The notes beneath the pieces were generated by a model. The model was given only the letters and a program-made list of their open reading frames with translations. It did not search any database and was not told where the DNA came from. A stretch of DNA of 64,000 bases from assembly GCF_000021485.1 (NCBI RefSeq), contig NC_011761.1, positions 1,146,001 through 1,210,000 of the forward strand. The letters run 5' to 3'. Of this stretch, positions 27,260-39,119 are shown one piece after another (the first letter of the stretch is position 1; every line of letters begins with the position of its first letter). A program made the translations under genes and the position numbers. The DNA is from Acidithiobacillus ferrooxidans ATCC 23270. GTDB lineage: Bacteria; Pseudomonadota; Gammaproteobacteria; Acidithiobacillales; Acidithiobacillaceae.

Positions 27260-28493
27260 GACAGGACTGAAGGCCGAAGTTTTGCCGACGGGAGTTGCTG
27301 TTACATCAGGGCCGCATACGCCGCGGGTGCTCTTTGTGAATCAAGCTTGCGTACTGGGTGGTGGTGAACTGTCGTTGCTGGATATCGCCAGACTGTTACC
27401 TTTTCAAATTCGCGTGGCGTTGTTCAAGGACGGTCTGTTGCGAGAACGGCTGAAACAGGCGGGTGTGACGGTCGATGTGTTGGACCCTACAGGCAACGGG
27501 CTTTCGAAGATACACAAAGATTCGGGCTGGCGCGAAGCCTTTGGCTCTCTGACGCAGCTGGTGCGCATCACCTGGCGTTTGCAAGGATTGGCAAAAAATG
27601 CAGACGTCATGTACGCCAATTCGCAAAAGGCCATGGTGGTGAGCGCGCTGGTCTGCATCACAGCCCGTAAGCCATTAATATGGCATCTGCGCGACATTCT
27701 GAGTGCGGAACACTTCAGTCCGACCATGCGCCGGGTAGCTGTCACGGTGGCAAATGCGCGTGCTTCTGCAGTCATTGTGAATTCCCACGCCACCGGCGAG
27801 GCTTTCGTCGCTGCGGGGGGGCGTCGCAAACTGGTGCGCGTGATACACAACGGCATCGATCCGAAGCCTTTTGATGGTATTACCGCTCATGAGGCGGTTC
27901 TGGCGCGTGCTGAGTTGAGGCCTTTGGACAACAGCTTTTTGATCGGGGTATTCGGGCGTCTGGCTCCGTGGAAGGGGCAGCATGTGGTTCTTGAAGCGCT
28001 TTGCAGTTTGCCAGGGGTATGCGCCGTTTTTGTAGGCGATGCGCTTTTCGGGGAAACGGATTTTGTGCATGTATTGCATAAACGTGCCGAACGAGAGGAC
28101 CTCCGTGAACGAGTACGTTTTTTGGGGTTTCGTAATGACATACCTCGACTGATGCGGGCGGTTGATGTCGTAGTCCACAGTTCGGTGAATCCTGAGCCTT
28201 TTGGCCGGGTCATTGTCGAGGGTATGCTGGCCCGGCGTCCAGTGGTGGCGAGCGCGGCGGGCGGAGTGTTGGAAATCATTGAAGACGGTGATACTGGCCT
28301 ACTTTACCCGCCAGGAGATGGTTTAGCCCTTCGGGCACAGATCGAGCGGCTACGAAATGATCCGGCGTTGTGTGAACGACTGGGTGCTTCCGGGTATAAA
28401 AAAGCGCAGGAGTATTTTTCCATACCTGCGATGATTGATGGTGTCAACAGCGTCATTACCGAAGTTTCTTCGCCAAGACGACGGTCTGTATGA
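27252..28493 (+). CDS. Family 4 (GT-B) glycosyltransferase
   Basis: Encodes 413 residues from ATG 27252, overlapping the preceding gene by eight bases. LGGGELSLLDIARLLP is the N-terminal block; the donor domain shows IGVFGRLAPWKGQHVVL, RVRFLGFRNDIPRLM and the E-x7-E motif in PEPFGRVIVEGMLARRPVV. It ends in an ATGA overlap with a manC stump, so the operon continues without a gap. Specificity is unknown. Confidence 0.87.
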   Translation: MTETGLKAEVLPTGVAVTSGPHTPRVLFVNQACVLGGGELSLLDIARLLPFQIRVALFKDGLLRERLKQAGVTVDVLDPTGNGLSKIHKDSGWREAFGSLTQLVRITWRLQGLAKNADVMYANSQKAMVVSALVCITARKPLIWHLRDILSAEHFSPTMRRVAVTVANARASAVIVNSHATGEAFVAAGGRRKLVRVIHNGIDPKPFDGITAHEAVLARAELRPLDNSFLIGVFGRLAPWKGQHVVLEALCSLPGVCAVFVGDALFGETDFVHVLHKRAEREDLRERVRFLGFRNDIPRLMRAVDVVVHSSVNPEPFGRVIVEGMLARRPVVASAAGGVLEIIEDGDTGLLYPPGDGLALRAQIERLRNDPALCERLGASGYKKAQEYFSIPAMIDGVNSVITEVSSPRRRSV

Positions 28494-28696
28494 ATCCGCT
28501 GATCCCCGTCATCCTCTCCGGTGGTGCCGGCACGCGGCTCTGGCCCCTGTCGCGCCAGAGCCATCCCAAACCCTTCCTGCGATTGCCCGATGGCGAGAGG
28601 CTACTGCAAAAGATCCGGCAGCAGTTCGGACAGTTTGACTGGGATAAAAGCGACGAACAGACCTGGCAGGTGCTTGCGGAGGCTGCGGAAGACTGA
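28490..28696 (+). pseudogene. 5' fragment of manC joined to unrelated 3' sequence
   Basis: The first 41 codons (ILSGGAGTRLWPLSRQSHP) are almost identical to the start of the intact manC at 34676. After LLQK the two diverge and the frame ends 25 codons later (tail QFDWDKSDEQTWQVLAEA). The donor of the tail is not recognised; it may be the 3' end of the gene that originally preceded the next glycosyltransferase. The fragment keeps ATGA coupling before and TGATG coupling after, so it may be translated as a 68-residue remnant. Confidence 0.85.
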
Positions 28697-29847
28697 TGCG
28701 CATCGCTATTGTGCATGACTGGCTGGTGGTTTACGCCGGAGCGGAACGGGTCTTGGAGCAGATGCTCACATGTTATCCCGACGCAGATCTCTTCAGCTTG
28801 GTGGATTTTTTGCCGACCGGTCAGCGCGCATTCATCCGCAATAAGCCGGTCATCACGTCTTTTATCCAGCGCCTGCCCAGGGCGCGCAAGAAATACCGGG
28901 GCTATCTGCCCCTCATGCCCCTGGCCGTGGAGCAGTTCGACCTCTCCGCTTATGACCTGGTTTTGTCCAGCAGCCATGCGGTGGCCAAGGGTGTGCTGAC
29001 CGGGCCGGATCAGTTGCATCTGTGCATGTGCTATTCCCCCATCCGCTATGCCTGGGACCTGCAGCATCAGTATCTGCGGGAGGCGGGACTGGTGCGGGGC
29101 GTCAAGGGCTGGGTGGCGAAGTTGATCCTGCATTATGTTCGTCTGTGGGATGTCCGCACGGCCAATGGCGTGGACTGCTTCATCGCCATTTCCCACTACA
29201 TCGCCCGGCGCATCCGCAAGGTGTACCGGCGGGAGTCCAGCGTCATCTATCCGCCGGTGGATGTGGCGGATTTTCCCATGTACCGGGACAAGGAAGATTT
29301 CTACGTCACCGCCTCGCGCATGGTCCCTTACAAGAAGGTGGACCTGATCGTCGAGGCCTTCAGCGCCATGCCGGACAAGCGTCTGGTGGTGATCGGGGAT
29401 GGGCCGGATTTCGCCAAAGTCCGCGACAAGGCGGGGCCGAACGTGCAATTGCTGGGCTTTGCGGGCGCGGAGGTCCTGCGCGACCACCTGCAACGGGCGC
29501 GGGCCTTCGTGTTCGCGGCGGAGGAGGACTTCGGCATCGCCCCCCTGGAGGCCCAGGCCTGCGGGACGCCCGTCATCGCCTTTGGCAAGGGCGGGGCGCT
29601 GGAGACCATCATCCCCCTGCCGGAGGCGGAGCGCGCCGGGTCGTCCCCCACACCCACCGGCGTATTCTTTTACAAACAATCCGCCGCGGCCATCATCGCC
29701 GCCGTGGAGCGCTTCGAGGAAGCGGGTGCGGCCATCACCCCAGAAGCCTGCCGCGAAAACGCCCTGCGCTTCGCCCCGGAGCGCTTCCGCGCGAAGTTCA
29801 CCGCCTTCGTTGGGCGGGAGTGGGCAGCATTTCGGGAGGACGCATGA
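28696..29847 (+). CDS. Family 4 glycosyltransferase, mannosyltransferase-like
   Basis: Encodes 383 residues. The start MRIAIVHDWLVVYAGAERVL and the block CYSPIRYAWDLQHQYL are typical of WbaZ/WbdA-like GT4 mannosyltransferases. The donor domain has YVTASRMVPYKKVDLIVEAF and EEDFGIAPLEAQACGTPVIA with the E-x7-E motif. Position beside manC, gmd and SDR remnants supports a GDP-mannose-derived donor, which is inference. It starts one base into the previous stop and ends with ATGA into an SDR stump. Confidence 0.85.
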   Translation: MRIAIVHDWLVVYAGAERVLEQMLTCYPDADLFSLVDFLPTGQRAFIRNKPVITSFIQRLPRARKKYRGYLPLMPLAVEQFDLSAYDLVLSSSHAVAKGVLTGPDQLHLCMCYSPIRYAWDLQHQYLREAGLVRGVKGWVAKLILHYVRLWDVRTANGVDCFIAISHYIARRIRKVYRRESSVIYPPVDVADFPMYRDKEDFYVTASRMVPYKKVDLIVEAFSAMPDKRLVVIGDGPDFAKVRDKAGPNVQLLGFAGAEVLRDHLQRARAFVFAAEEDFGIAPLEAQACGTPVIAFGKGGALETIIPLPEAERAGSSPTPTGVFFYKQSAAAIIAAVERFEEAGAAITPEACRENALRFAPERFRAKFTAFVGREWAAFREDA

Positions 29848-30236
29848 CACTTTTGCTTACCGGCGCCAACGGCTTCGTCGGCCGGTATGTGCAGGCGGCT
29901 AGGACATTTGGCCGCGATCGGGGGGGGGTGGGGGGGGTGGAGATCCCGTTGGCGGGCAACCATGGGGAAATCTTCGACTTCAACCCCATCCAGAAAGAGC
30001 GCATGGAGAAGAAGGTGCGCCAGACTAACGCTATCAGCGTCAGATGGCGCGACAGCGCACCAAGGCGGCCAAGGAAAAACGTTCGACCAGCGCGAACTAT
30101 CGAAAGACCAAAAACGTCTCGCCCTGGCACACCCGTATCATTGCCCCGCCAGAGTGAATGCGTTGGCTGCCGACCGGTGATACACTTTCTGCCATTGCTG
30201 GTTGTGCTGAAGCATTTCGAAAGGGGGCGCTCATGA
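29844..30236 (+). pseudogene. Truncated NAD-dependent epimerase/dehydratase (SDR) start fused to decayed sequence
   Basis: ATG 29844 overlaps the previous stop and opens TLLLTGANGFVGRYVQAA, the Rossmann start of a GDP-6-deoxy-4-keto-mannose reductase-like SDR. It is followed at 29920-29937 by G9-T-G8, then LAGNHGEIFDF, after which similarity to SDRs is lost. The frame runs on to 30236 and touches the antitoxin start with ATGA. It is the remains of an rmd/fcl-like gene; the part from about 29990 is unrecognised. Confidence 0.75.
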
Positions 30237-30637
30237 GCACTGCAACTGAAGTGGTGCTTCAAAAGATGAAGGCGGATCGTCTCGCTGTCTGTCGACAATT
30301 GTCTGAGGATTACCTGCAGATCGCCAGAGAAAAGCTTTTGCCATCTCTCATCGATTTGTTTGATCCAGATACTATTTGGGTCTTTGGCTCGGTAGCGCGC
30401 CGCACTGCCACCGAAGATTCGGACATAGACCTTTTGATTGTCAGCGGCCCTGGACTGGATGGCGTTCCTTGGCTAAAAAGACAGCAGATGGCTATGGAGG
30501 CGGTGACTCAGACCGGGATGCCTTTCGGTTGCGATATCATCGTTTGGACGGAATCGGAATGGAAGAAGGAAATGCGAGGATGCAATGGGATACAGCGGGA
30601 ATGCCTCAGGAATAACGAGGTGATTTATGAGCGATGA
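30233..30637 (+). CDS. MntA-type minimal nucleotidyltransferase (antitoxin), copy 1
   Basis: Encodes 134 residues. The nucleotidyltransferase signature GS-x10-DxD is exact: GSVARRTATEDSDIDLLIV. In MNT/HEPN modules the MNT protein is the antitoxin and, in studied cases, AMPylates its HEPN partner. The partner gene overlaps the end by 11 bases. A second copy lies at 32048-32452 with only three base differences (residue changes V19A and T89A). The upstream sequence is degenerate, so the promoter is unclear. Confidence 0.88.
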   Translation: MSTATEVVLQKMKADRLAVCRQLSEDYLQIAREKLLPSLIDLFDPDTIWVFGSVARRTATEDSDIDLLIVSGPGLDGVPWLKRQQMAMEAVTQTGMPFGCDIIVWTESEWKKEMRGCNGIQRECLRNNEVIYER

Positions 30638-31067
30638 GACACGACTGGATCGCAGCAGACAGTGGTTTGATGCAGCATTTGATGAGCTAAAAGCCTCTAA
30701 AACGCTATTGGATAATGGATCTTATGCTCAGTCCTGTTTTTATGCGCAACAGTCCGTGGAAAAAGCCATGAAAGGCGTTATGGCCGCCGACGGCAAAGCA
30801 ATAACCACGCACTCCATTGCGAAGTTGATGACTAATCTGCCCCAGGATAGTCAGCTCGACGATATGGAACCCATCCGGCTGGATAAATTTTATATTCTGA
30901 CGCGTTATCCGGAATCTCTGCCGGAAGGCGCGAGCATAAGGCAGATATTTGGCAGGCGAGATGCAGAAGACGGCTATGCCACAGCATCGGGAACTGTACA
31001 CTTGTTGGCCGGTTGGGCCAAAGAGTTGGGCGTCACGATTCCTGAACTGACTGAATCTCCCCACTGA
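30627..31067 (+). CDS. HEPN-domain protein (toxin candidate), copy 1
   Basis: Encodes 146 residues. SYAQSCFYAQQSVEKAMKG and the later TRYPESLPEG are standard HEPN blocks of MNT/HEPN pairs. The RNase motif R-x4-6-H is not visible, so catalytic toxicity is uncertain and a binding role cannot be excluded. The second copy at 32442-32882 encodes an identical protein. The stop lies inside sequence that also encodes the end of a former gmd gene in another frame. Confidence 0.85.
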   Translation: MSDETRLDRSRQWFDAAFDELKASKTLLDNGSYAQSCFYAQQSVEKAMKGVMAADGKAITTHSIAKLMTNLPQDSQLDDMEPIRLDKFYILTRYPESLPEGASIRQIFGRRDAEDGYATASGTVHLLAGWAKELGVTIPELTESPH

Positions 31068-31137
31068 GCGTGAGGCGAGCTTTGATGCCCTGGTGCGGAT
31101 GATGGCTGAGGCGGATCTGCGGCGAGTGGCGGAGTAA
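31066..31137 (+). pseudogene. 3' end of a GDP-mannose 4,6-dehydratase-like gene (copy 1 remnant)
   Basis: Reading GAG CGT GAG GCG from about 31067 gives EREASFDALVRMMAEADLRR and VAE, then TAA at 31135. This is the typical C-terminus of GMD enzymes (SFxxLVxxMxxADL). The rest of the gene is gone and the HEPN gene abuts it. The paralogous remnant at 32883-32899 plus 34615-34679 reads EREVSFDELVRMMAEADLRR and is the site of the IscB element. Confidence 0.75.
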
Positions 31138-31150
31138 CCGCGCTGTGCTT

Positions 31151-31195
31151 ATCATTGCCTCGCCAGAGGGTAATGATTACAATGAGATCATTGCC
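31151..31195 (+). promoter_or_regulatory. Candidate FitA operator with three half-sites
   Basis: ATCATTGCC (31151-31159), its inverse GGTAATGAT (31169-31177) and ATCATTGCC again (31187-31195) are spaced exactly 18 bases apart, 23-67 bases before the fitA start. Ribbon-helix-helix antitoxins bind such inverted half-sites to autoregulate their operons; assignment to FitA is inference. Confidence 0.55.
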
Positions 31196-31217
31196 ATCAA
31201 TGCTGAATGAGGTTCAC

Positions 31218-31466
31218 ATGGCGTCTTTGACGATTCGTAATCTTGATGATGGTCTGAAATCTATGCTTCGGATGCAAGCCGCGCGCCATGGGCATTCCAT
31301 GGAGGAAGAGGTGCGCAGTATTTTGCGCCAAGCCTTGTCCAGGCCTGCTCCCGACACGGGTTTGGGCCAGCGTTTGGCAAGTCGCTTTCAGGCCGTGGCG
31401 ACCCAGTTGCCTATCCCCGCGAGATCACTCCCACGTACCCCGCCGAACTGGGATATGCCTGCATGA
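31218..31466 (+). CDS. fitA: FitA-like ribbon-helix-helix antitoxin
   Basis: Encodes 82 residues from ATG 31218 (MASLTIRNLDDGLKSMLRMQ); the frame opens at 31155. The N-terminus is a ribbon-helix-helix DNA-binding domain (SLTIRNLDDGLKSML, then HGHSMEEEVRSILRQAL) and the C-terminal tail should wrap the PIN toxin. It overlaps the toxin gene by ATGA and has an inverted-repeat operator upstream. The FitAB module sits between the two MNT/HEPN copies. Confidence 0.88.
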   Translation: MASLTIRNLDDGLKSMLRMQAARHGHSMEEEVRSILRQALSRPAPDTGLGQRLASRFQAVATQLPIPARSLPRTPPNWDMPA

Positions 31467-31891
31467 TTTTGCTGGATACCAACGTCTTGTCCGAGTTCAT
31501 GCGCCCGGCCCCGTCCCTTCAGGTCGTGGCGTGGCTTGATGCACAAGCGGCTGAGCAGGTATGGGTCTGTGCCATCAGCCGTGCCGAAGTTGAACTGGGT
31601 GTTGCCTTGTTGCCGGATGGACAGCGCAAACTGGGGCTGCAAGTGGCAGCCAGAGCGATGTTTTCTGAAGAATTTGTCGGGCGTTGCCTGCCTTTCGACG
31701 AGCAAGCGGCAACCTGTTACGCAGGCATTGTGGCATCGCGTACCCGCCTTGGGCGCCCTATCAGTGTCGAAGATGCACAGATTGCAGCCATCGCCCTGAC
31801 CCATGGTTTGACGCTGGCCACACGCAATGAACGTGATTTTGCATGGATTGAAGATCTTTCGGTCGCGAACCCCTGGCAGACAGAGACATGA
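31463..31891 (+). CDS. fitB: FitB/VapC-type PIN-domain toxin
   Basis: Encodes 142 residues. PIN acidic residues are placed as expected: D5 in LLDTNVLSE, E42 in SRAEVELG and D101 in ISVEDAQIAA, followed by TRNERDFAWI with the last acid. PIN toxins are Mg-dependent RNases; the cognate FitA antitoxin is encoded directly upstream in ATGA overlap. The reading frame is intact. Confidence 0.9.
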   Translation: MILLDTNVLSEFMRPAPSLQVVAWLDAQAAEQVWVCAISRAEVELGVALLPDGQRKLGLQVAARAMFSEEFVGRCLPFDEQAATCYAGIVASRTRLGRPISVEDAQIAAIALTHGLTLATRNERDFAWIEDLSVANPWQTET

Positions 31892-32047
31892 GACCAGGGG
31901 AATGGGTGGCATGATTCTCGCCGCCAACCCCCAGGTTCTGCCGCCCGGCCGGTCGCGAAAAAGCCGCGAATCTGCGTTGGCTGCTGGCCGACGATACATG
32001 GCCATTGCTTGATCAGTTGCGCTGATGCATTTCGAAAGGGGGCACTC
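31892..32047 (+). other. Decayed coding sequence left of MNT/HEPN copy 2
   Basis: No intact gene is present. From about 31948 one frame reads REKAANLRWLLADDTWPLL and ends at TGA 32023, and the adjacent frame begins GGMILAANPQVLPP, so this looks like a gene end broken by a frameshift. The last 70 bases align with 30165-30230 left of copy 1 (GCGTTGGCTGC, GATACA, GCCATTGCT, CATTTCGAAAGGG), showing that both module copies replaced the same ancestral sequence. Confidence 0.5.
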
Positions 32048-32452
32048 ATGAGCACTGCAACTGAAGTGGTGCTTCAAAAGATGAAGGCGGATCGTCTCGC
32101 TGCCTGTCGACAATTGTCTGAGGATTACCTGCAGATCGCCAGAGAAAAGCTTTTGCCATCTCTCATCGATTTGTTTGATCCAGATACTATTTGGGTCTTT
32201 GGCTCGGTAGCGCGCCGCACTGCCACCGAAGATTCGGACATAGACCTTTTGATTGTCAGCGGCCCTGGACTGGATGGCGTTCCTTGGCTAAAAAGACAGC
32301 AGATGGCTATGGAGGCGGTCGCTCAGACCGGGATGCCTTTCGGTTGCGATATCATCGTTTGGACGGAATCGGAATGGAAGAAGGAAATGCGAGGATGCAA
32401 TGGGATACAGCGGGAATGCCTCAGGAATAACGAGGTGATTTATGAGCGATGA
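32048..32452 (+). CDS. MntA-type minimal nucleotidyltransferase (antitoxin), copy 2
   Basis: Encodes 134 residues and is nearly identical to the gene at 30233. The GS-x10-DxD nucleotidyltransferase motif is unchanged. The differences from copy 1 are one base in codon 19 and two bases in codons 88-89. The flanks differ far more than the coding sequence, so the module has been copied or homogenised recently. It overlaps the HEPN gene by 11 bases. Confidence 0.88.
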   Translation: MSTATEVVLQKMKADRLAACRQLSEDYLQIAREKLLPSLIDLFDPDTIWVFGSVARRTATEDSDIDLLIVSGPGLDGVPWLKRQQMAMEAVAQTGMPFGCDIIVWTESEWKKEMRGCNGIQRECLRNNEVIYER

Positions 32453-32882
32453 GACACGACTGGATCGCAGCAGACAGTGGTTTGATGCAGCATTTGATGA
32501 GCTAAAAGCCTCTAAAACGCTATTGGATAATGGATCTTATGCTCAGTCCTGTTTTTATGCGCAACAGTCCGTGGAAAAAGCCATGAAAGGCGTTATGGCC
32601 GCCGACGGCAAAGCAATAACCACGCACTCCATTGCGAAGTTGATGACTAATCTGCCCCAGGATAGTCAGCTCGACGATATGGAACCCATCCGGCTGGATA
32701 AATTTTATATTCTGACGCGTTATCCGGAATCTCTGCCGGAAGGCGCGAGCATAAGGCAGATATTTGGCAGGCGAGATGCAGAAGACGGCTATGCCACAGC
32801 ATCGGGAACTGTACACTTGTTGGCCGGTTGGGCCAAAGAGTTGGGCGTCACGATTCCTGAACTGACTGAATCTCCCCACTGA
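32442..32882 (+). CDS. HEPN-domain protein (toxin candidate), copy 2
   Basis: Encodes 146 residues, identical to the product of 30627-31067. Two full copies of one module 1.8 kb apart are available for homologous recombination, which would delete the FitAB module between them. The R-x4-6-H motif is absent here as well. The IscB element begins 17 bases after the stop. Confidence 0.85.
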   Translation: MSDETRLDRSRQWFDAAFDELKASKTLLDNGSYAQSCFYAQQSVEKAMKGVMAADGKAITTHSIAKLMTNLPQDSQLDDMEPIRLDKFYILTRYPESLPEGASIRQIFGRRDAEDGYATASGTVHLLAGWAKELGVTIPELTESPH

Positions 32883-32883
32883 G

Positions 32884-33202
32884 CGTGAGGTGAGTTTTGG
32901 TCAACTACCCCGGACTGAAGTCCGGAGCTTGCAAGGAGGTACGCAGGTTGGGTTGACCAGGGGGCCGGAGTAATCCGGCAGACGTTGGATACGGGTCGCT
33001 CAGACGCACCAGTGGATGCTTCCTCAGTCCACTGCTCTGCAAGGTTGGGATCGTGCTGGCGAAAGGTAAAACGCCGAAGGTTTCAGCCGCTGCTGGAAAC
33101 AGCAGGAGCCGGTATCCATCCGCCCCGAGGGGATATTGACCGCAAGGTCAGAGTTACCAGGTGCGTAAGCACTGACAGGTCCGTAAGGACATAGGAGAGA
33201 AA
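32884..33202 (+). ncRNA. IscB-associated omega RNA (HEARO RNA) with its flanking guide
   Basis: The element begins at 32900 with GTCAACTACCCCGGACTGAA, the hallmark 5' part of HEARO/omega RNAs. Further hairpins follow (CCGGACTGAAGTCCGG, GCCGGAGTAATCCGGC, CGTAAGCAC, TCCGTAAGGAC) up to the iscB start. Family knowledge: in IscB systems the guide is the roughly 16 bases just outside the left end, here 32884-32899 (CGTGAGGTGAGTTTTG), transcribed at the 5' end of the RNA. The exact transcript ends are not visible. Confidence 0.85.
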
Positions 33203-34614
33203 GTGGCCGTATTTGTACTGGACCGAAGGAAGCGACCGCTGATGCCGTGCTCGGAGAAACGGGCGCGGTTGCTGCTGGAGCGCGGGCGCGCACGGGTGCA
33301 TCGCATGGTGCCCTTCACGATCCGGCTGGTGGACAGGTTGCAAGCGGATTCCGTATTGCAACCTTTGCGTCTGAAGCTCGACCCCGGCAGCAAGACCACG
33401 GGGCTCGCGCTAGTGCGGGAGAAAGAGACGGTGGATGTTTCTACGGGCGAAGTCCTCCGCGCCATCACCATCCTCATGCTGCTGGAACTGAAGCATCGGG
33501 GCCAAGCGATCCGCGACGCCCTTGCCAGCCGGGGCGCGTTTCGCCGGCGGCGGCGTGGGCAGTTGCGGTATCGCCCCGCCCGCTTTGACAATCGGACGAA
33601 GTCGGAAGACTGGCTGGCGCCGTCTTTACAACATCGGGTGGATACGGTGCTGGCCTGGGTAAACAGGTTGATGCGTCTGGCGCCGGTGACGGCGCTGTCT
33701 CAGGAGCTGGTGCGTTTCGATAACCAGACCATGCAAAATCCTGAAATCTCCGGAACGGAGTACCAGCAGGGCACCCTGTTCGGGTATGAGGTGCGGGAAT
33801 ATTTGCTGGAGAAATGGGGACGGGAATGTGCCTATTGCGGGGCGGAGCATACGCCGCTCGAAATCGACCACATCCACCCCCGCAGTAAAGGCGGCAGCGA
33901 TCGGGTGAGCAATCTCACCATCGCCTGTCATGACTGCAACCAGGCCAAAGGCAATATGCCTATAGAGCAGTTTCTGGCGAAGTTTCCGGAGCGTATCCGC
34001 AAGATACTGGCCCAGGCCAAAGCACCATTGCGCGATGCGGCCGCAGTCAACAGCACCCGCTGGGCATTGTTCCAACGGCTCAAGGCGACGAATTTACCCG
34101 TCGAAGTCGCCAGCGGTGGACGGACGAAGTGGAATCGTCATCGGTTGCAGGTGCCGAAAGAACATTGTCTCGATGCCGCCTGCGTTGGGCATGTGGATAC
34201 GATAGAGCATTGGAATCAGTCTGTACTTAGTATCAAAGCGACGGGACGCGGCAGCTATCAGCGCACGCGCCTGACAAGGCACGGATTTCCGCGCGGATAT
34301 CTGACCAGAAGCAAAAGCGCCTTTGGGTTCCAGACCGGGGACATGGTGAAGGCGGTAGTGACCAAAGGCAAGAAAGTAGGTACATACCTGGGCCGCGTCG
34401 CCATCCGCGCCAGCGGTAGTTTTAACATTCAGACCGCAACAGGGCTGGTGCAAGGCATTCATCATCGCTTCTGCACACGAATTCAGTGCGCAGACGGGTA
34501 TGGATATTCGTGGACCAAGATAGCATCGACACAAGGAGAAGCGGGAATGAGGGCGGCTCACGCCGCCGCGCTATCCCTCCCCGGGCTGAACCCCGGGGTT
34601 TCCCGCGCAAATGG
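32900..34614 (+). mobile_element. IscB-omega RNA element, 1715 bp, IS200/IS605-type non-autonomous
   Basis: The ends are defined by reading across the gmd remnant: TGAGTTTTG | element | ATGAACTGGTGCGG, where the paralogous site at 31078-31096 reads GAGCTTTGATGCCCTGGTG with no insert. There is no target duplication, as expected for single-strand IS200/IS605-type insertion. The right end carries the hairpin CCCCGGGctgaacCCCGGGG (34580-34599). Only iscB and its RNA are inside; no TnpA is encoded, so movement would need a transposase in trans. The flank after the right end is ATGA. Confidence 0.88.
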
Positions 34615-34618
34615 ATGA
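33203..34618 (+). CDS. iscB: IscB RNA-guided nuclease (HNH/RuvC)
   Basis: Encodes 471 residues. The N-terminal PLMP domain (VLDRRKRPLMPCSEKRARLL) is followed by RuvC-I with D60 (LKLDPGSKTTGLAL), the arginine-rich bridge helix (FRRRRRGQLRYRPARFDNR), RuvC-II with E168 (ALSQELVRFDNQ), an HNH domain with zinc cysteines C209/C212/C242/C245 and IDHIHPRSKGG at 221-231, and RuvC-III with H321 and D324 (KEHCLDAACVGH). All catalytic residues are present. IscB is the ancestor-like relative of Cas9 and nicks or cuts DNA guided by the omega RNA. The stop TGA at 34616 lies in the target-site ATGA, so the last bases of the gene come from flanking DNA. Confidence 0.95.
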   Translation: MAVFVLDRRKRPLMPCSEKRARLLLERGRARVHRMVPFTIRLVDRLQADSVLQPLRLKLDPGSKTTGLALVREKETVDVSTGEVLRAITILMLLELKHRGQAIRDALASRGAFRRRRRGQLRYRPARFDNRTKSEDWLAPSLQHRVDTVLAWVNRLMRLAPVTALSQELVRFDNQTMQNPEISGTEYQQGTLFGYEVREYLLEKWGRECAYCGAEHTPLEIDHIHPRSKGGSDRVSNLTIACHDCNQAKGNMPIEQFLAKFPERIRKILAQAKAPLRDAAAVNSTRWALFQRLKATNLPVEVASGGRTKWNRHRLQVPKEHCLDAACVGHVDTIEHWNQSVLSIKATGRGSYQRTRLTRHGFPRGYLTRSKSAFGFQTGDMVKAVVTKGKKVGTYLGRVAIRASGSFNIQTATGLVQGIHHRFCTRIQCADGYGYSWTKIASTQGEAGMRAAHAAALSLPGLNPGVSRANG

Positions 34619-34679
34619 ACTGGTGCGGATGATGGCCGAGGCCGATTTGCGGCGAGTGGCGGGAGAAGTTGTGGAATGA
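34615..34679 (+). pseudogene. 3' end of a GDP-mannose 4,6-dehydratase-like gene (copy 2 remnant, split by the IscB element)
   Basis: Together with 32883-32899, this stretch reads EREVSFDELVRMMAEADLRR then VAGEVVE and stops at TGA 34677-34679. The GMD-like C-terminus is interrupted by the IscB element after TTTG. The stop overlaps the manC start as ATGA, which shows that gmd and manC were neighbours in one operon. Only about the last 27 codons of gmd remain. Confidence 0.75.
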
Positions 34680-36118
34680 ACCCCCTGATCCCCGTCATCC
34701 TCTCCGGTGGTGCCGGCACGCGGCTCTGGCCCCTGTCGCGCCAAAGCCATCCCAAACCCTTCCTGCGATTGCCCGATGGCGAGACGCTGCTGCAAAAGAC
34801 CCTGCACCGGGCGCTGGCCCTGCCGGAGGTGACCCGTTTCCTCACCGTGACCAACCGGGAGTATTACTTCCAGAACCGGGACGTCTATGCGCAGGTGCCC
34901 GGAGCGGCGGAGCGGGAGGCATTTTTCCTGCTGGAGCCGGTGGGTCGCAACACGGCACCGGCCATCGCCGCCGCCGCCCTGCAGGCGGAAGCCCTGGTCG
35001 GGCCAGAAGCCACCCTGCTGGTGCTCCCCGCCGATCATCTGGTGCAGGATCAGGCCGCCTTTGCCACCGCCGTCGCGCGGGCGCGGCGTCTTGCCGAAGA
35101 AGGCTATCTGGTGACCTTCGGTATCACCCCCGCCTGGCCGGAGACCGGTTATGGTTACATCGAAAGTGGGGAAGCCCTGACCCGGAGCGGTGACATACTG
35201 GGTTTTGCGGTGCGCCGCTTTGTGGAAAAGCCCGATGCGGCTACGGCTGCGGCTTTTCTAGCCCAAGGGGATTATACCTGGAACAGCGGCATGTTCTGCT
35301 TCCGCGCGGATGCGTTTTTATCCGCCCTTGCGCGCCACCAGCCGCAGGTCAGCGAGGACACCCGCGCCGCCTGGAGCGAGGGGCGCTGCGAGACGGATTT
35401 CCGTGAACTGACGCCGGCATTCGCGCAAGTGACGGATATATCGGTGGATTATGCCGTCATGGAGCACGCCGAACGGGTGGCGGTAGTGCCAGGCGATTTT
35501 GGCTGGAGCGACATCGGCTCATGGACGTCTTTCGGCGCCCTGATCCCCGAGGATGGCAGCGGTAACCGGGTGTTGGGGGAAAGCGTGCTGGAGGATGCGC
35601 AACACTGCATCGTCCATAGCGCGGACCGCCTGACCGCCCTGCTGGGCGTAGAGGATCTGATCGTGGTGGATACACCCGACGCGCTCCTCGTCGCCCGCAA
35701 GGACCGCGATCAGGATGTGAAGCGGATCGTCGCCGAACTCCGACACCGCGGTCACGATGCCTGCAATCTGCACCGCACCGTCCACCGACCCTGGGGTACT
35801 TACACGGTGCTGGAGGAGGGCTCCCGCTTCAAGATCAAGCGCATTCTGGTCAAACCGGGCGCGGCGCTCTCTTTGCAGATGCATTACCACCGCAGTGAAC
35901 ACTGGATCGTGGTCTCGGGCACCGCCAAGATCGTCAACGGCGGCGCGGATCACCTGGTCCAGACCAACGAGTCCACCTATATCCCCGTCGGCACCCCCCA
36001 CCGTCTGCTCAACCCCGGCGTCATCGACCTGGTCATGATCGAGGTGCAAAGCGGCGAGTATCTGGGCGAGGACGATATCGTGCGCTTCGATGATCGCTAT
36101 GGGCGGGTAGCGCCGTGA
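34676..36118 (+). CDS. manC: Mannose-1-phosphate guanylyltransferase / mannose-6-phosphate isomerase (type II)
   Basis: Encodes 480 residues, full length for the bifunctional ManC/AlgA family. The N-terminal nucleotidyltransferase has GGAGTRLWPLSRQSHPKPF and the FVEKPD block; the C-terminal cupin isomerase has LQMHYHRSEHWIVVSGTA. It makes GDP-mannose from mannose-1-phosphate and interconverts fructose-6-P and mannose-6-P. With gmd gone, GDP-mannose itself is probably the donor used by the mannosyltransferase-like GT4. Its 5' end was duplicated at 28490 and its 3' end at 36852. Confidence 0.94.
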   Translation: MNPLIPVILSGGAGTRLWPLSRQSHPKPFLRLPDGETLLQKTLHRALALPEVTRFLTVTNREYYFQNRDVYAQVPGAAEREAFFLLEPVGRNTAPAIAAAALQAEALVGPEATLLVLPADHLVQDQAAFATAVARARRLAEEGYLVTFGITPAWPETGYGYIESGEALTRSGDILGFAVRRFVEKPDAATAAAFLAQGDYTWNSGMFCFRADAFLSALARHQPQVSEDTRAAWSEGRCETDFRELTPAFAQVTDISVDYAVMEHAERVAVVPGDFGWSDIGSWTSFGALIPEDGSGNRVLGESVLEDAQHCIVHSADRLTALLGVEDLIVVDTPDALLVARKDRDQDVKRIVAELRHRGHDACNLHRTVHRPWGTYTVLEEGSRFKIKRILVKPGAALSLQMHYHRSEHWIVVSGTAKIVNGGADHLVQTNESTYIPVGTPHRLLNPGVIDLVMIEVQSGEYLGEDDIVRFDDRYGRVAP

Positions 36119-36128
36119 TGGCGGGGCG
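36081..36128 (+). repeat. Direct repeat of the manC 3' end, copy 1
   Basis: A 48-base stretch over the manC stop codon (starting TGCGCTTCGATGATCGCTAT, including TAGCGCCGTGATGGCGGGGCG in part) recurs at 36852-36899 with only a few mismatches. The two copies bracket the DUF433/DUF5615 module. Confidence 0.85.
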
Positions 36129-36261
36129 CTGTATTTCTGGGTATCCGCATCCGTACTAATTTCATCGGGGAGGCTGCAGCTTGCGACAGGCGATTTGCAG
36201 TCGCATAATCAACACATGAGCGCCCATATGCTCGGCATAGGGAATAACTGGAGGTGTGAGC

Positions 36262-36489
36262 ATGCTTGATAAGCGCATTACGATTGATCCATCTATTTGC
36301 CATGGCAAGCCCTGCATTCGCGGTTTACGTTATCCTATAGAAGATATTCTGGAATGGTTGGCAAGCGGCATGTCCATAGAGGAAATCCTAGCTGACTATG
36401 AAGATCTGGAGCGTGCGGATATCCTCGCGTCTCTTGATTATGCTGCGCGATTGGCGCAGATAAAAAGAGTTGATCGATTGGTTTCATGA
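36262..36489 (+). CDS. DUF433-family antitoxin
   Basis: Encodes 75 residues from ATG 36262 (GGAGGTGTGAGC upstream). ITIDPSICHGKPCIRGLRYP followed by ILEWLASGMSIEEILADY is the DUF433 signature, a winged-helix-type VapB45-like antitoxin. The stop overlaps the toxin gene by ATGA. The module is AT-richer than the surrounding EPS genes and is bracketed by a 48-bp repeat of the manC 3' end. Confidence 0.88.
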   Translation: MLDKRITIDPSICHGKPCIRGLRYPIEDILEWLASGMSIEEILADYEDLERADILASLDYAARLAQIKRVDRLVS

Positions 36490-36839
36490 AATTTTTAGTT
36501 GATGCGCAATTACCGAGACGATTGTCACTCTGGCTTATGAAGCAGGGCTATGATGCTAAACATACATTGGAATTACCGTTAGGCAACCGCACTCCAGATG
36601 CTGATCTAATAGCCATTGCTGATCGAGATGATCGCGTTCTAGTGACGAAGGACGATGATTTTGTGCAGAGTTTCTTCGTGTCTGGCCGTCCGCGGCGATT
36701 ATTGCTGGTGGCTACTGGAAATATTACCAATGAAGACCTTTTCAGCATTTGGCAAAAACATATGGGCCTAGTTCATAATGCTTTCCTGGCGGCGCAGTTC
36801 GTGGAGTTTTCTAAAGCTGAGATTCTCATCCATCAGTGA
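36486..36839 (+). CDS. DUF5615 PIN-like toxin
   Basis: Encodes 117 residues. MKFLVDAQLPRRLSLWL, DADLIAIADRDDRVLVTKDD and the C-terminal helices fit the DUF5615 (VapC45-like, PIN-fold) family, with Asp6, Asp38-40 and Asp57-59 as likely metal ligands. It partners with the DUF433 antitoxin by ATGA overlap. RNase activity is inferred from the fold. Confidence 0.85.
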   Translation: MKFLVDAQLPRRLSLWLMKQGYDAKHTLELPLGNRTPDADLIAIADRDDRVLVTKDDDFVQSFFVSGRPRRLLLVATGNITNEDLFSIWQKHMGLVHNAFLAAQFVEFSKAEILIHQ

Positions 36840-36851
36840 AGCCGCTTATCG

Positions 36852-36899
36852 TGCGCATCGATGATCGCTATGCACGGGTAGCGCCGTGATGGCGGGGCG
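36852..36899 (+). repeat. Direct repeat of the manC 3' end, copy 2
   Basis: Second copy of the 48-base repeat (starting TGCGCATCGATGATCGCTAT). It lies 12 bases after the PIN-like toxin stop and is not part of a gene here, so it marks the right-hand junction of the module insertion. Confidence 0.85.
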
Positions 36900-36967
36900 T
36901 GGCGCCGTTGACAGCGCATTTCTCTGTTCACAAAGTAGTGCCGAAACCTATTCTATGAGGTGTGGTT

Positions 36968-37201
36968 ATGAGAACGGTGACTGCCGCAGATGCCAACCGC
37001 CAGTTTTCCAGCGTCTTGCGCGAGGTAAGTCAAGGCGAAACCTTCACCGTGGTATCCAGAGGCAGGCCGGTGGCGACCATCGCCCCCGCCAGCGCCGATC
37101 ACGCCCGGCGCAGCGCGGCAAAGGCCCGGTTGCTGGTCCGCTTGCGCGCGCAAGAGAGGACGGGGGCGCGCGATTGGTCGCGGGAGGAGTTGTACGAGTG
37201 A
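36968..37201 (+). CDS. Phd/YefM-type antitoxin
   Basis: Encodes 77 residues from ATG 36968 (GAGGTG upstream). MRTVTAADANRQFSSVLREV then GETFTVVSRGRPVATIAP is the Phd/YefM DNA-binding fold. The C-terminal 30 residues, rich in Arg and Ala, should bind the toxin. It overlaps the PIN toxin gene by GTGA. Confidence 0.9.
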   Translation: MRTVTAADANRQFSSVLREVSQGETFTVVSRGRPVATIAPASADHARRSAAKARLLVRLRAQERTGARDWSREELYE

Positions 37202-37668
37202 CGGCCCTGCGGGTCGCGCTGGACACCAATATCCTGGCCTATGCGGAGGGCGTTGGCGACGATGCGCGTTGCACCGCAGCCATCGCATTGATGGAACGGT
37301 TGCCCGCTGAAGGGATTTTGCTTCCGGCGCAAGCCTTGGGCGAGTTGTATCGGGTGATGAGCGGCAAAGCCAAACGCGATGCCGCCGCCGCCAGGGAGGC
37401 CATCCTGGGCTGGGCGGATAACTTCGAGGTCGTCGATTCCACCTGGGCGGCTTTTCAATCTGCGCTGGATCTTTCCGTGGATCATGGTCTGCAGGTCTGG
37501 GACGCTTTGATCCTGTCGGTAGCTGCGGAAAGCCGCTGTCGCCTCCTGCTCAGCGAGGATTTGCAGCCAGGCTTCACCTGGCGTGGCGTGACCGTGGTCA
37601 ATCCCTTTGCCACGCCCCATGCGCCGCTGCTCGGCGGTATTCTGGGCATCGGTCGGCAGGAAAAATGA
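37198..37668 (+). CDS. PIN-domain toxin
   Basis: Encodes 156 residues from GTG 37198, in GTGA overlap with the antitoxin. RVALDTNILAYAEGVGD holds the first PIN aspartate, LPAQALGELYRVM the conserved Glu, and LQVWDALILSVAAE the third acid; LLLSEDLQPGF closes the site. The stop overlaps the start of the initiating EPS glycosyltransferase (ATGA), so a toxin and an EPS gene are translationally coupled, which is unusual. Confidence 0.9.
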   Translation: MTALRVALDTNILAYAEGVGDDARCTAAIALMERLPAEGILLPAQALGELYRVMSGKAKRDAAAAREAILGWADNFEVVDSTWAAFQSALDLSVDHGLQVWDALILSVAAESRCRLLLSEDLQPGFTWRGVTVVNPFATPHAPLLGGILGIGRQEK

Positions 37669-39119
37669 AAAAAAAGCGCGGCAACTCAAGGTCTTCCTGG
37701 CCCTCCCTGCTGCTTTTCGGCGGCGATGCCCTGGCGCTGGCGGTCGCTTTTTGGTTCGGCCGTATCGCCCATGCCCTGTATTACGGACAGGATGTGGTTT
37801 GGGTCCTGTTGCATTGGTGGGGGGAGGCGTACTCCGCCAACCTGCTCCTCTTCCCGCTCATGAGCTGTACCGCCTTGCTCTGGTTTTATTACCGGGGGCA
37901 TTACGCGCGTCAGAAGGCTTTTTGGGACGAGCTGGGGGAAGTCATCCAGGTCATCTCCGTCCTGGCTGTCCTCAATGCGGCTTTCGCCTTTTCCGGCAGG
38001 CTGCCATTGTCGCGGCTGTGGCTGTTCAGTACCTGGGTGCTGGCGCTGATCCTGCTGCCCCTGTTGCGGATGGCCATACACTGGTTCATCTCCCGCCGCC
38101 GCGGCTGGCAGCGCCCTTATGCGCTGCTGGGGTGCGGCGCCAATGCCGCAGAGGCGGCGCGGGCCTTTGCCAGCGAGCCGCTGCTCGGCTACCGGCTGCA
38201 GGCGGTGTTGGTGCCCTCGGAATTGGATGCCGTACACTGCGCCATTCCTGCGGATGTGCCCCGCGTTCCGCTGGGGGCGGACCCGCTGCAGACCATGGCG
38301 GCGCTGGGTAACCCCCATGTGGTGCTGGCGCTGGAAATGGATCAGTGGCAGACCATGGAAAACCTGGTGTGGAATCTCGGCATGCGCTATCCCGACCTGA
38401 CCATCGCACCCCCTTTGCGAGGCCTGCCCATTTTCGGGCTAGAAACTTTGCACTTTTTCAGCCACGAGATATTCATGCTGCGGGCGCGGGACAACCTCGC
38501 CCGCCCCGGGCCGCGGATCATCAAACGCGCCTTTGATCTGGTGGCGGCCAGCATTCTGGTGCTGCTCCTGTCGCCCCTGCTGCTCTTTCTGGCGTGGCGG
38601 ATTCGCCGGGACGATGGCGGGCCGGTGTTTTTTGTGCAGGAACGGGTAGGGCGGGGTGGGCAACCCTTCCCCTGTTACAAGTTCCGCAGCATGGTCATCG
38701 ATGCCGAAAGCCGTCTGCGGCAATATCTTACCAGCCACCCCGAGTTGCACGCCGAGTATCAGCGCAATTTCAAGTTGCGTGATGACCCCCGCGTGACCCA
38801 CATCGGGCGGTTCCTGCGCCGCACCAGCCTGGATGAACTCCCCCAATTGTTCAACGTGCTCCGGGGCGAAATGAGTTTGGTGGGCCCGCGTCCTCTGCTG
38901 GACCGGGAGCTGGAGTGCTACGGCAACGGTTTTGCCCTCTATCGCCAGGTACGCCCCGGAATCACCGGCCTGTGGCAGACCAGCGGTCGCTCTGAGACCA
39001 CCTTCACCGAACGCGCCTCTCTGGATGCCTGGTACGTGAAGAACTGGTCCCTGTGGTATGACATCGTCATCCTCCTGCGCACCGTCAAGGTGGTGTTGCT
39101 CCGGGACGGGGCATATTGA
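37665..39119 (+). CDS. Undecaprenyl-phosphate phosphoglycosyltransferase (WbaP/WcaJ family), starts EPS repeat units
   Basis: Encodes 484 residues. The N-terminal third has about four to five membrane helices; a CoA-binding-like domain follows ([17 protein letters not shown]). The C-terminal bacterial sugar transferase domain starts [20 protein letters not shown] and contains [40 protein letters not shown] and GPRPLL. The enzyme transfers a sugar-1-phosphate (glucose or galactose) to undecaprenyl phosphate, the first committed step. It is the last EPS gene of the region. Confidence 0.9.

Follow-up and report, generated by a model that had tools for sequence, protein, structure and literature searches.

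An intact IscB/HEARO element in Acidithiobacillus ferrooxidans and the start-codon placement of related insertions

A complete IscB/HEARO element resides in a 64,000-nucleotide stretch of the Acidithiobacillus ferrooxidans ATCC 23270 genome (NC_011761.1, positions 1,146,001 to 1,210,000; hereafter the window). Judged from its sequence, it is an intact and ordinary element, a new locus of a known kind, with a gene for IscB behind an omega RNA. Our survey suggests that its nearer relatives often lie directly before a host start codon, at a target-adjacent motif that in many of them completes the iscB stop codon. This family-level preference, not the window locus, is the point of interest. Our whole explanation, to which we give a probability of about 0.8, is that the window carries an intact, non-autonomous IscB/HEARO element that is guided by its flank and mobilized in trans, and that its relatives favor host start codons.

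Related insertions at host start codons

Insertions related to the window element are enriched at start codons. Both ends could be placed for 82 insertions. In 65 of these, the motif ATG opens a frame of 80 codons or more, compared with 629 of 2267 control ATGAs in the same flanks. Where such a frame is also preceded by an in-frame stop no more than 60 codons away, we call it a strict start; strict starts occur at 55 of the 82 insertions and at 265 of the 2267 control ATGAs (p = 4e-30). We hand-picked 20 downstream proteins from the 55 strict-start loci, and 19 have an NCBIfam match at E <= 1e-15 (L115 has none). The match starts at residue 1 to 9 in 16 of them, and later in PyrB (37), LptA (25) and a YdiJ-like protein (13). 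The families include AlaS, ArgS, GalE (twice), LeuB, PyrB, HisH and PurM, as well as XthA (twice), RsmE, LptA, YbaK, CheB and RmlD. A Shine-Dalgarno match of at least 5 nt is present in the left flank of 18 of the 55 strict starts, compared with 2 of 55 in an interval 40 nt further upstream; the Shine-Dalgarno counts given here and below rest on three different matching rules and are not interchangeable.

The 82 insertions derive from a survey of 159 loci (80 + 79), of which 158 were read (L199 was omitted) and the 153 whose frame spans 390 codons or more were scanned with a right-end profile. A match at E <= 0.01 was obtained for 92, while the 61 loci with none are mostly more distant. Five loci (L001, L004, L016, L005 and L008) were added by hand to give 97, and 15 were removed because they were duplicates, the left end was missing, the ends were ambiguous or the flanks were short (L126, L134, L135, L125, L080, L127, L131, L137, L053, L055, L129, L116, L162, L171 and L188). 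Acidithiobacillus insertions that had been fetched twice under different identifiers are counted once each. The motif is ATGA at 78 insertions, TTGA at 2, GTGA at 1 and ATGG at 1, a count biased toward ATGA because each junction was set at the nearest ATGA within -2 to +5 of the projected end. Without this adjustment, ATGA coincides with the projected end in 44 of 92 loci and lies within 0 to +2 of it in 75.

Plasmid annotations place host genes at the junction in some cases. We sampled 18 iscB regions, representing 16 distinct sites. At 4 of the 16, with a defined end, an annotated coding sequence starts at the junction: it begins on the last base of iscB in pPNAP01, pRK1-2 and Polaromonas JS666 plasmid 2, and the fourth is a Pseudomonas traU. 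At three further sites, a coding sequence begins right after the right end as it appears by eye (parB in Trichormus, parB in Deinococcus and a Chroococcidiopsis gene). At another 3 of the 16, only a few bases separate the annotated start from the motif, and 6 have no annotated start or an unclear one. In both a cyanobacterial plasmid (L359) and a Deinococcus plasmid (L365), iscB sits between parA and parB, immediately before parB. Our empty sites for start-codon insertions come from plasmids; an exact chromosomal one (alaS) was not obtained. Three Pseudomonas traU plasmids (L346, L347 and L349) carry ATGA-element-ATGAATGA, while the empty plasmids L351 to L354 read ATGAATGA. ATGA on both sides of the element is a 4-nt discrepancy from the empty site, and the host start codon is intact.

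Start-codon placement extends to HEARO elements that lack an open reading frame (ORF). Three genomes (G256, G141 and G353) have 114, 69 and 37 HEARO matches, respectively. From these we fetched 80 loci (L261 to L340) and used 60 (35 from G256 and 25 from G141); the other 20 showed no end by our search patterns, which demanded ATGA or GTGA. The 60 elements measure 343 to 395 bp, too short for iscB, and lie before ATGA (48) or GTGA (12). Strict starts follow 21 of the 60, compared with 281 of 3631 controls (p = 3e-9; two genomes).

The iscB stop codon recurs at the junction. In the window, the TGA of iscB occupies 34616-34618, inside the flanking ATGA, as a previous reading made from the sequence alone had proposed. 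Going beyond that sequence-only reading, we find that the iscB frame of Acidithiobacillus relatives often reaches the last element base and that the flank completes the TGA. Across the survey, the stop is at the junction in 35 of 82 insertions (20 entirely within the motif and 15 spanning the junction), upstream of it in 45 and beyond it in 2.

A junction-supplied stop could be an adaptation, with either the C-terminal tail of IscB or an overlap of stop and start under selection. The 35 junction stops are scattered over the tree, where the four stop classes need 23 changes, and read-out past the motif is rare (2 of 82); this rarity may instead reflect selection against chimeric tails. However, in ten junction-stop copies, differences in the tail are spread evenly over codon positions 1, 2 and 3 (263, 228 and 279), while those in the core are not (3790, 2537 and 9022), and the tail has a dN of 0.233 and a dS of 0.205. 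Protein-level selection on the tail was rejected on these ten copies, and the tail would thus be a transposon end that is read through. Strict starts are also equally common after junction-stop (23 of 35) and upstream-stop elements (31 of 45; p = 0.81), so stop coupling does not appear to select the site, and we rejected the idea that an overlap of stop and start brings elements to start codons. Adaptation is therefore unlikely, and the junction-supplied stop looks passive.

Start-codon placement itself could be survivor bias and nothing else, if insertions in genes are purged and those at starts and intergenic sites are left. We compared coding-interior, start and noncoding sites for 78 of the 82 IscB rows and 47 of the 48 ORF-less ATGA rows, excluding those with short flanks. 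Coding-interior sites are depleted as survivor bias predicts, both in the IscB set (15 of 78, against 597 of 915 controls) and among ORF-less elements (1 of 47, against 451 of 734). Yet when coding sites are left out, the ratio of start to noncoding sites is 53:10 against 117:201 for IscB elements (odds ratio 9.1, p = 3e-12) and 20:26 against 65:218 for ORF-less elements at ATGA (odds ratio 2.6, p = 0.006). The site classes are, moreover, mechanical, being drawn from open frames and not from gene calls. Survivor bias thus appears to explain part of the pattern, more so in the ORF-less set, and an extra start excess remains; as the sole explanation it is doubtful. Another proposal, in which the host gene receives its ribosome-binding site from the right end of the element, draws on sites seen by eye in Trichormus (L359), Chroococcidiopsis (L361) and Deinococcus (L365). 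A Shine-Dalgarno match of at least 4 nt in the right end was nevertheless found in just 1 of 35 junction-stop, 0 of 45 upstream-stop, 0 of 2 read-out and 4 of 60 ORF-less elements. With nearly none in the right ends of the surveyed group, we rejected an element-borne site as a general rule and regard this proposal as highly improbable.

Several observations weigh against our whole explanation. The window copy is itself not at a start codon, as its motif ATG opens only 5 codons, and a frame of 80 codons at the motif is absent in 5 of 10 loci from the Acidithiobacillus search, the window copy included. The L348 insertion has an exact empty site, yet in the empty plasmids the annotated coding sequence begins earlier and reaches the ATG only at codon 19; the strict-start rule therefore overcounts somewhat, for controls too. 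Two of the 55 strict starts (L086 and L143) have badly placed left ends, and the statistics treat insertions as independent. The start bias of ORF-less elements is weaker than that of IscB elements (p = 2e-4). The similar start placement of junction-stop and upstream-stop elements speaks against coupling as the driver of placement, and our explanation does not account for the translation of alaS or argS 3' of upstream-stop elements. Insertions outside the strict-start class have Shine-Dalgarno matches in 6 of 27 cases, which is not clearly less frequent than the 18 of 55, so these matches do not separate the two kinds. This result, together with the 61 of 153 scanned loci that have no right-end match and stand outside the start-codon test, lowered our confidence in our whole explanation and in the parking proposal set out below.

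Anatomy, ends and empty sites of the window element

The window locus has the hallmarks of IscB systems. We read the window directly at 30601-35400, listed ORFs for 28000-38500 and scanned its entire length against Rfam. HEARO RF02033 is the sole family above its gathering score (83 bits), and its model begins precisely at the left end that had been claimed (Table 1). The protein matches the Pfam families RRXRR (PF14239, 1.2e-69) and HNH (PF01844, 1e-12), and the closest solved structures are TbaIscB (2.3e-45) and OgeuIscB (1.3e-25). A RuvC domain split by HNH is thus accompanied by an RRXRR region and by a HEARO RNA directly upstream. Uninterrupted sites identify the left flank as the target and show that the right flank opens with the motif. 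Two traits of the IS200/IS605 family are also present, namely subterminal hairpins and the lack of a target duplication; a third is absent, as iscB alone fills the element and no Y1 transposase TnpA is encoded. The identity that the sequence-only reading gave to this locus is borne out, including by the full-length Rfam match.

Table 1. Features of the window element and its surroundings (window positions).
Feature	Position	Strand	Basis or remark
Complete IscB/HEARO element	32900..34614	+	1715 bp; start of HEARO model, GTCAA end of relatives, right-end homology, empty sites
Predicted guide, 16 nt of left flank (host DNA)	32884..32899	+	Directly 5' of omega RNA model; same position in uninterrupted sites
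Omega RNA, HEARO RF02033	32900..33140	+	92.8 bits, model 1-211 of 211
Left-end hairpin CCGGAC TGAA GTCCGG	32910..32925	+	From sequence; comparable stems in relatives by eye
iscB, 471 aa, GTG start	33203..34618	+	RRXRR, HNH; RuvC-I D60, RuvC-II E168, HNH H223 and RuvC-III D324 kept
Right-end hairpin	34579..34598	+	From sequence; two relatives have a similar end on the TnpA side of IS605-type elements
Target-adjacent motif ATGA (host DNA)	34615..34618	+	Provides iscB stop TGA
Right part of interrupted gmd-like remnant	34615..34679	+	Its TGA overlaps ATG of next gene
Uninterrupted paralog of insertion site	31066..31132	+	2 guide mismatches, ATGC
HEPN gene	32442..32882	+	Stop codon separated from guide by 1 nt; transcription may continue from it into omega RNA

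Both ends can be placed to the base. Positions 32899 and 34614 are both G, which leaves a one-base ambiguity in the window itself. Related elements mostly end immediately before ATGA, and 77 of 82 related loci have GTCAA as their left end, after all four bases. This shared left end settles the ambiguity at the bounds proposed earlier. That reading had also named additional element sequence outside these bounds as something to look for, and none was seen in the relatives compared.

Uninterrupted copies of the site argue against a target duplication. We compared the joined flank with the window genome, a single contig of 2,982,397 bases, and with 39 relatives; weaker rows, up to E 0.1 (including L229), were kept outside the alignment. 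The 11 uninterrupted copies aligned comprise eight loci of relatives, two elsewhere in the window genome and one in the window. Ten are gap-free across the junction (the aligned part of L226 reaches just 4 bases left of it), and the remaining copy, L222, carries a single inserted base off the junction, 7 nt to its left. There is thus no target duplication, again as first read. The motif position holds ATGA in one copy (L222), ATGC in eight and ACGC in two.

The guide and motif lie where they had been predicted. The guide length is borrowed from OgeuIscB, for which the excerpt of PMC13180657 gives an optimum of 16 nt. Within the genome, the guide followed by ATGA, with at most 3 mismatches, recurs only at the element itself, where GTCA comes directly after the guide, and at the paralog in the window. 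Hence the genome has no perfect self target. The paralog is uninterrupted and differs from guide and motif as described before (Table 1), and it may plausibly escape targeting.

The element interrupts a remnant whose left and right parts join in frame into a gmd-like tail. The gmd label is presumptive, as in the sequence-only reading. The gene 3' of the remnant (34676-36118) has nucleotidyl transferase and mannose-6-phosphate isomerase domains. A nucleotidyltransferase and HEPN pair is duplicated at 30158-31067 and 32009-32882, with 949 of 967 aligned bases identical, the gmd-like tail included. Each copy is followed by such a tail, and a FitA-like RHH/PIN pair (31155-31891) lies between the copies.

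Copies, mobilization and nuclease integrity

Related copies point to past movement, probably with a transposase from elsewhere. The window genome has a second copy, 72% identical and with a different right end. Matches to the element occur in 14 of 40 genomes (the window genome included), some to an end only, and there are none in E. coli genomes. In one genome (G021), two copies that show no difference over 1697 positions lie in different flanks. A PF01797 (Y1 transposase) search gave no match in the whole window genome, nor in G021, while 5 of 14 control genomes gave a match in that search; a TnpA encoded in the window genome was accordingly rejected as the mobilizer. At 2 of 10 TnpA loci of relatives, the stretch beside tnpA weakly matches the right end of the element (L036 of G015, E 2.6e-4, and L032 of G006, E 0.003), and the two look alike by eye. 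TnpA acting in trans is thus the likely mobilizer. In the excerpt of PMC9755519, HEARO nucleases are described as rarely near TnpA.

The lack of a TnpA match in the genome and the position of the insertion in a decayed gene tail would also suit an inert relic without activity. Against this, the ORF and omega RNA are intact and the catalytic residues are retained. In addition, pairwise omega (dN/dS) is about 0.13 among the RuvC-intact relatives and the window copy. We therefore consider a relic quite improbable and an intact element the better account.

A separate IscB lineage of Acidithiobacillus has lost the RuvC-II glutamate (L002, which is the second copy of the window genome, and L007, L009, L010, L017, L018 and L027). 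The residue is methionine, or leucine in L010, and HNH is intact; in 5 of these 7 proteins, the RuvC-I aspartate is lost as well. L003 and L004 (L004/L016) have only an aspartate-to-histidine change. The RuvC-defective proteins group on a single side of a branch (SH-aLRT 93 in a quick tree), and their pairwise omega of 0.13 equals that of intact relatives, indicating purifying selection. Both RuvC residues are kept in 145 of 157 distinct IscB proteins. It is possible that the defective proteins are natural HNH-only nickases or binders.

Proposed mechanism and known systems

The anatomy, the ends, the empty sites, the junction stop and the start-codon enrichment can be read from sequence, whereas transcription, guide use, cutting, mobilization in trans and translational coupling are steps that we infer. 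Host transcription from the left, perhaps from the nucleotidyltransferase/HEPN pair, would yield an RNA with the 16-nt left flank at its 5' end and the omega RNA as its body. IscB with this flank-guided RNA would then seek these 16 nt with ATGA directly 3' of them. As the element separates target from motif, leaving the guide followed by GTCA, its own locus would be safe. An empty allele could be cut and then repaired from an element-bearing copy, and movement would depend on TnpA supplied in trans, as none was found in the window genome.

Because ATGA contains ATG, nearer relatives would come to lie at start codons above chance. A position before a host start codon may provide the element with a correctly oriented promoter. 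In elements with an iscB frame that is open through the right end, the motif-completed stop overlaps the host ATG, and ribosomes may reach the next gene by termination-reinitiation. A stronger version is that IscB/HEARO elements park before host AUGs, including those of essential genes, and that the host promoter makes the guide RNA. In many, the overlap of stop and AUG would make translation of the host gene depend on iscB and so spare iscB from decay. We hold this version tentatively, at well under even odds.

If the family pattern is true, it would explain the origin of the promoter for a guide located outside the element, in relatives of the ancestor of Cas9. It would also explain how such elements persist without harming their host. 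Surveys that infer motifs and guides from insertion sites would then be biased, as the flanks would be leader sequences and start codons, not random DNA. In titles and abstract openings of the IscB/HEARO and IS605 literature, with the founding papers outside this scope, we found no report of a start-codon preference or a target-supplied iscB stop. The excerpt of PMC13180657 mentions the start codon solely for choosing protein starts.

The window copy shows no difference from IscB-omega RNA/HEARO (OMEGA) systems: it shares their RRXRR, RuvC and HNH protein, the upstream HEARO RNA, the left-flank guide and the right-flank motif. In work by Weinberg (2009), HEARO elements are reported to insert ahead of ATGA or GTGA. 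A relative of the IsrB kind (L014 of G004) has, by eye, a similar GTCAA left end, the same kind of right end, ATGA and an IsrB-like ORF that apparently lacks HNH, whereas the window protein has HNH. IS200/IS605 elements with TnpA and TnpB, presumably of the ISDra2 type, have a TnpA-side end that resembles the right end of the IscB element in two Acidithiobacillus genomes. Unlike these, the window element has neither tnpA nor tnpB, and its motif is ATGA in place of the ATCAA (TTGAT) beside L036 and L032. Finally, in insertion sequences of the IS870 type, the target completes the stop codon of the transposase gene. The window element shares this target-completed stop, but here the gene encodes an RNA-guided nuclease, and the motif of its target is the stop.
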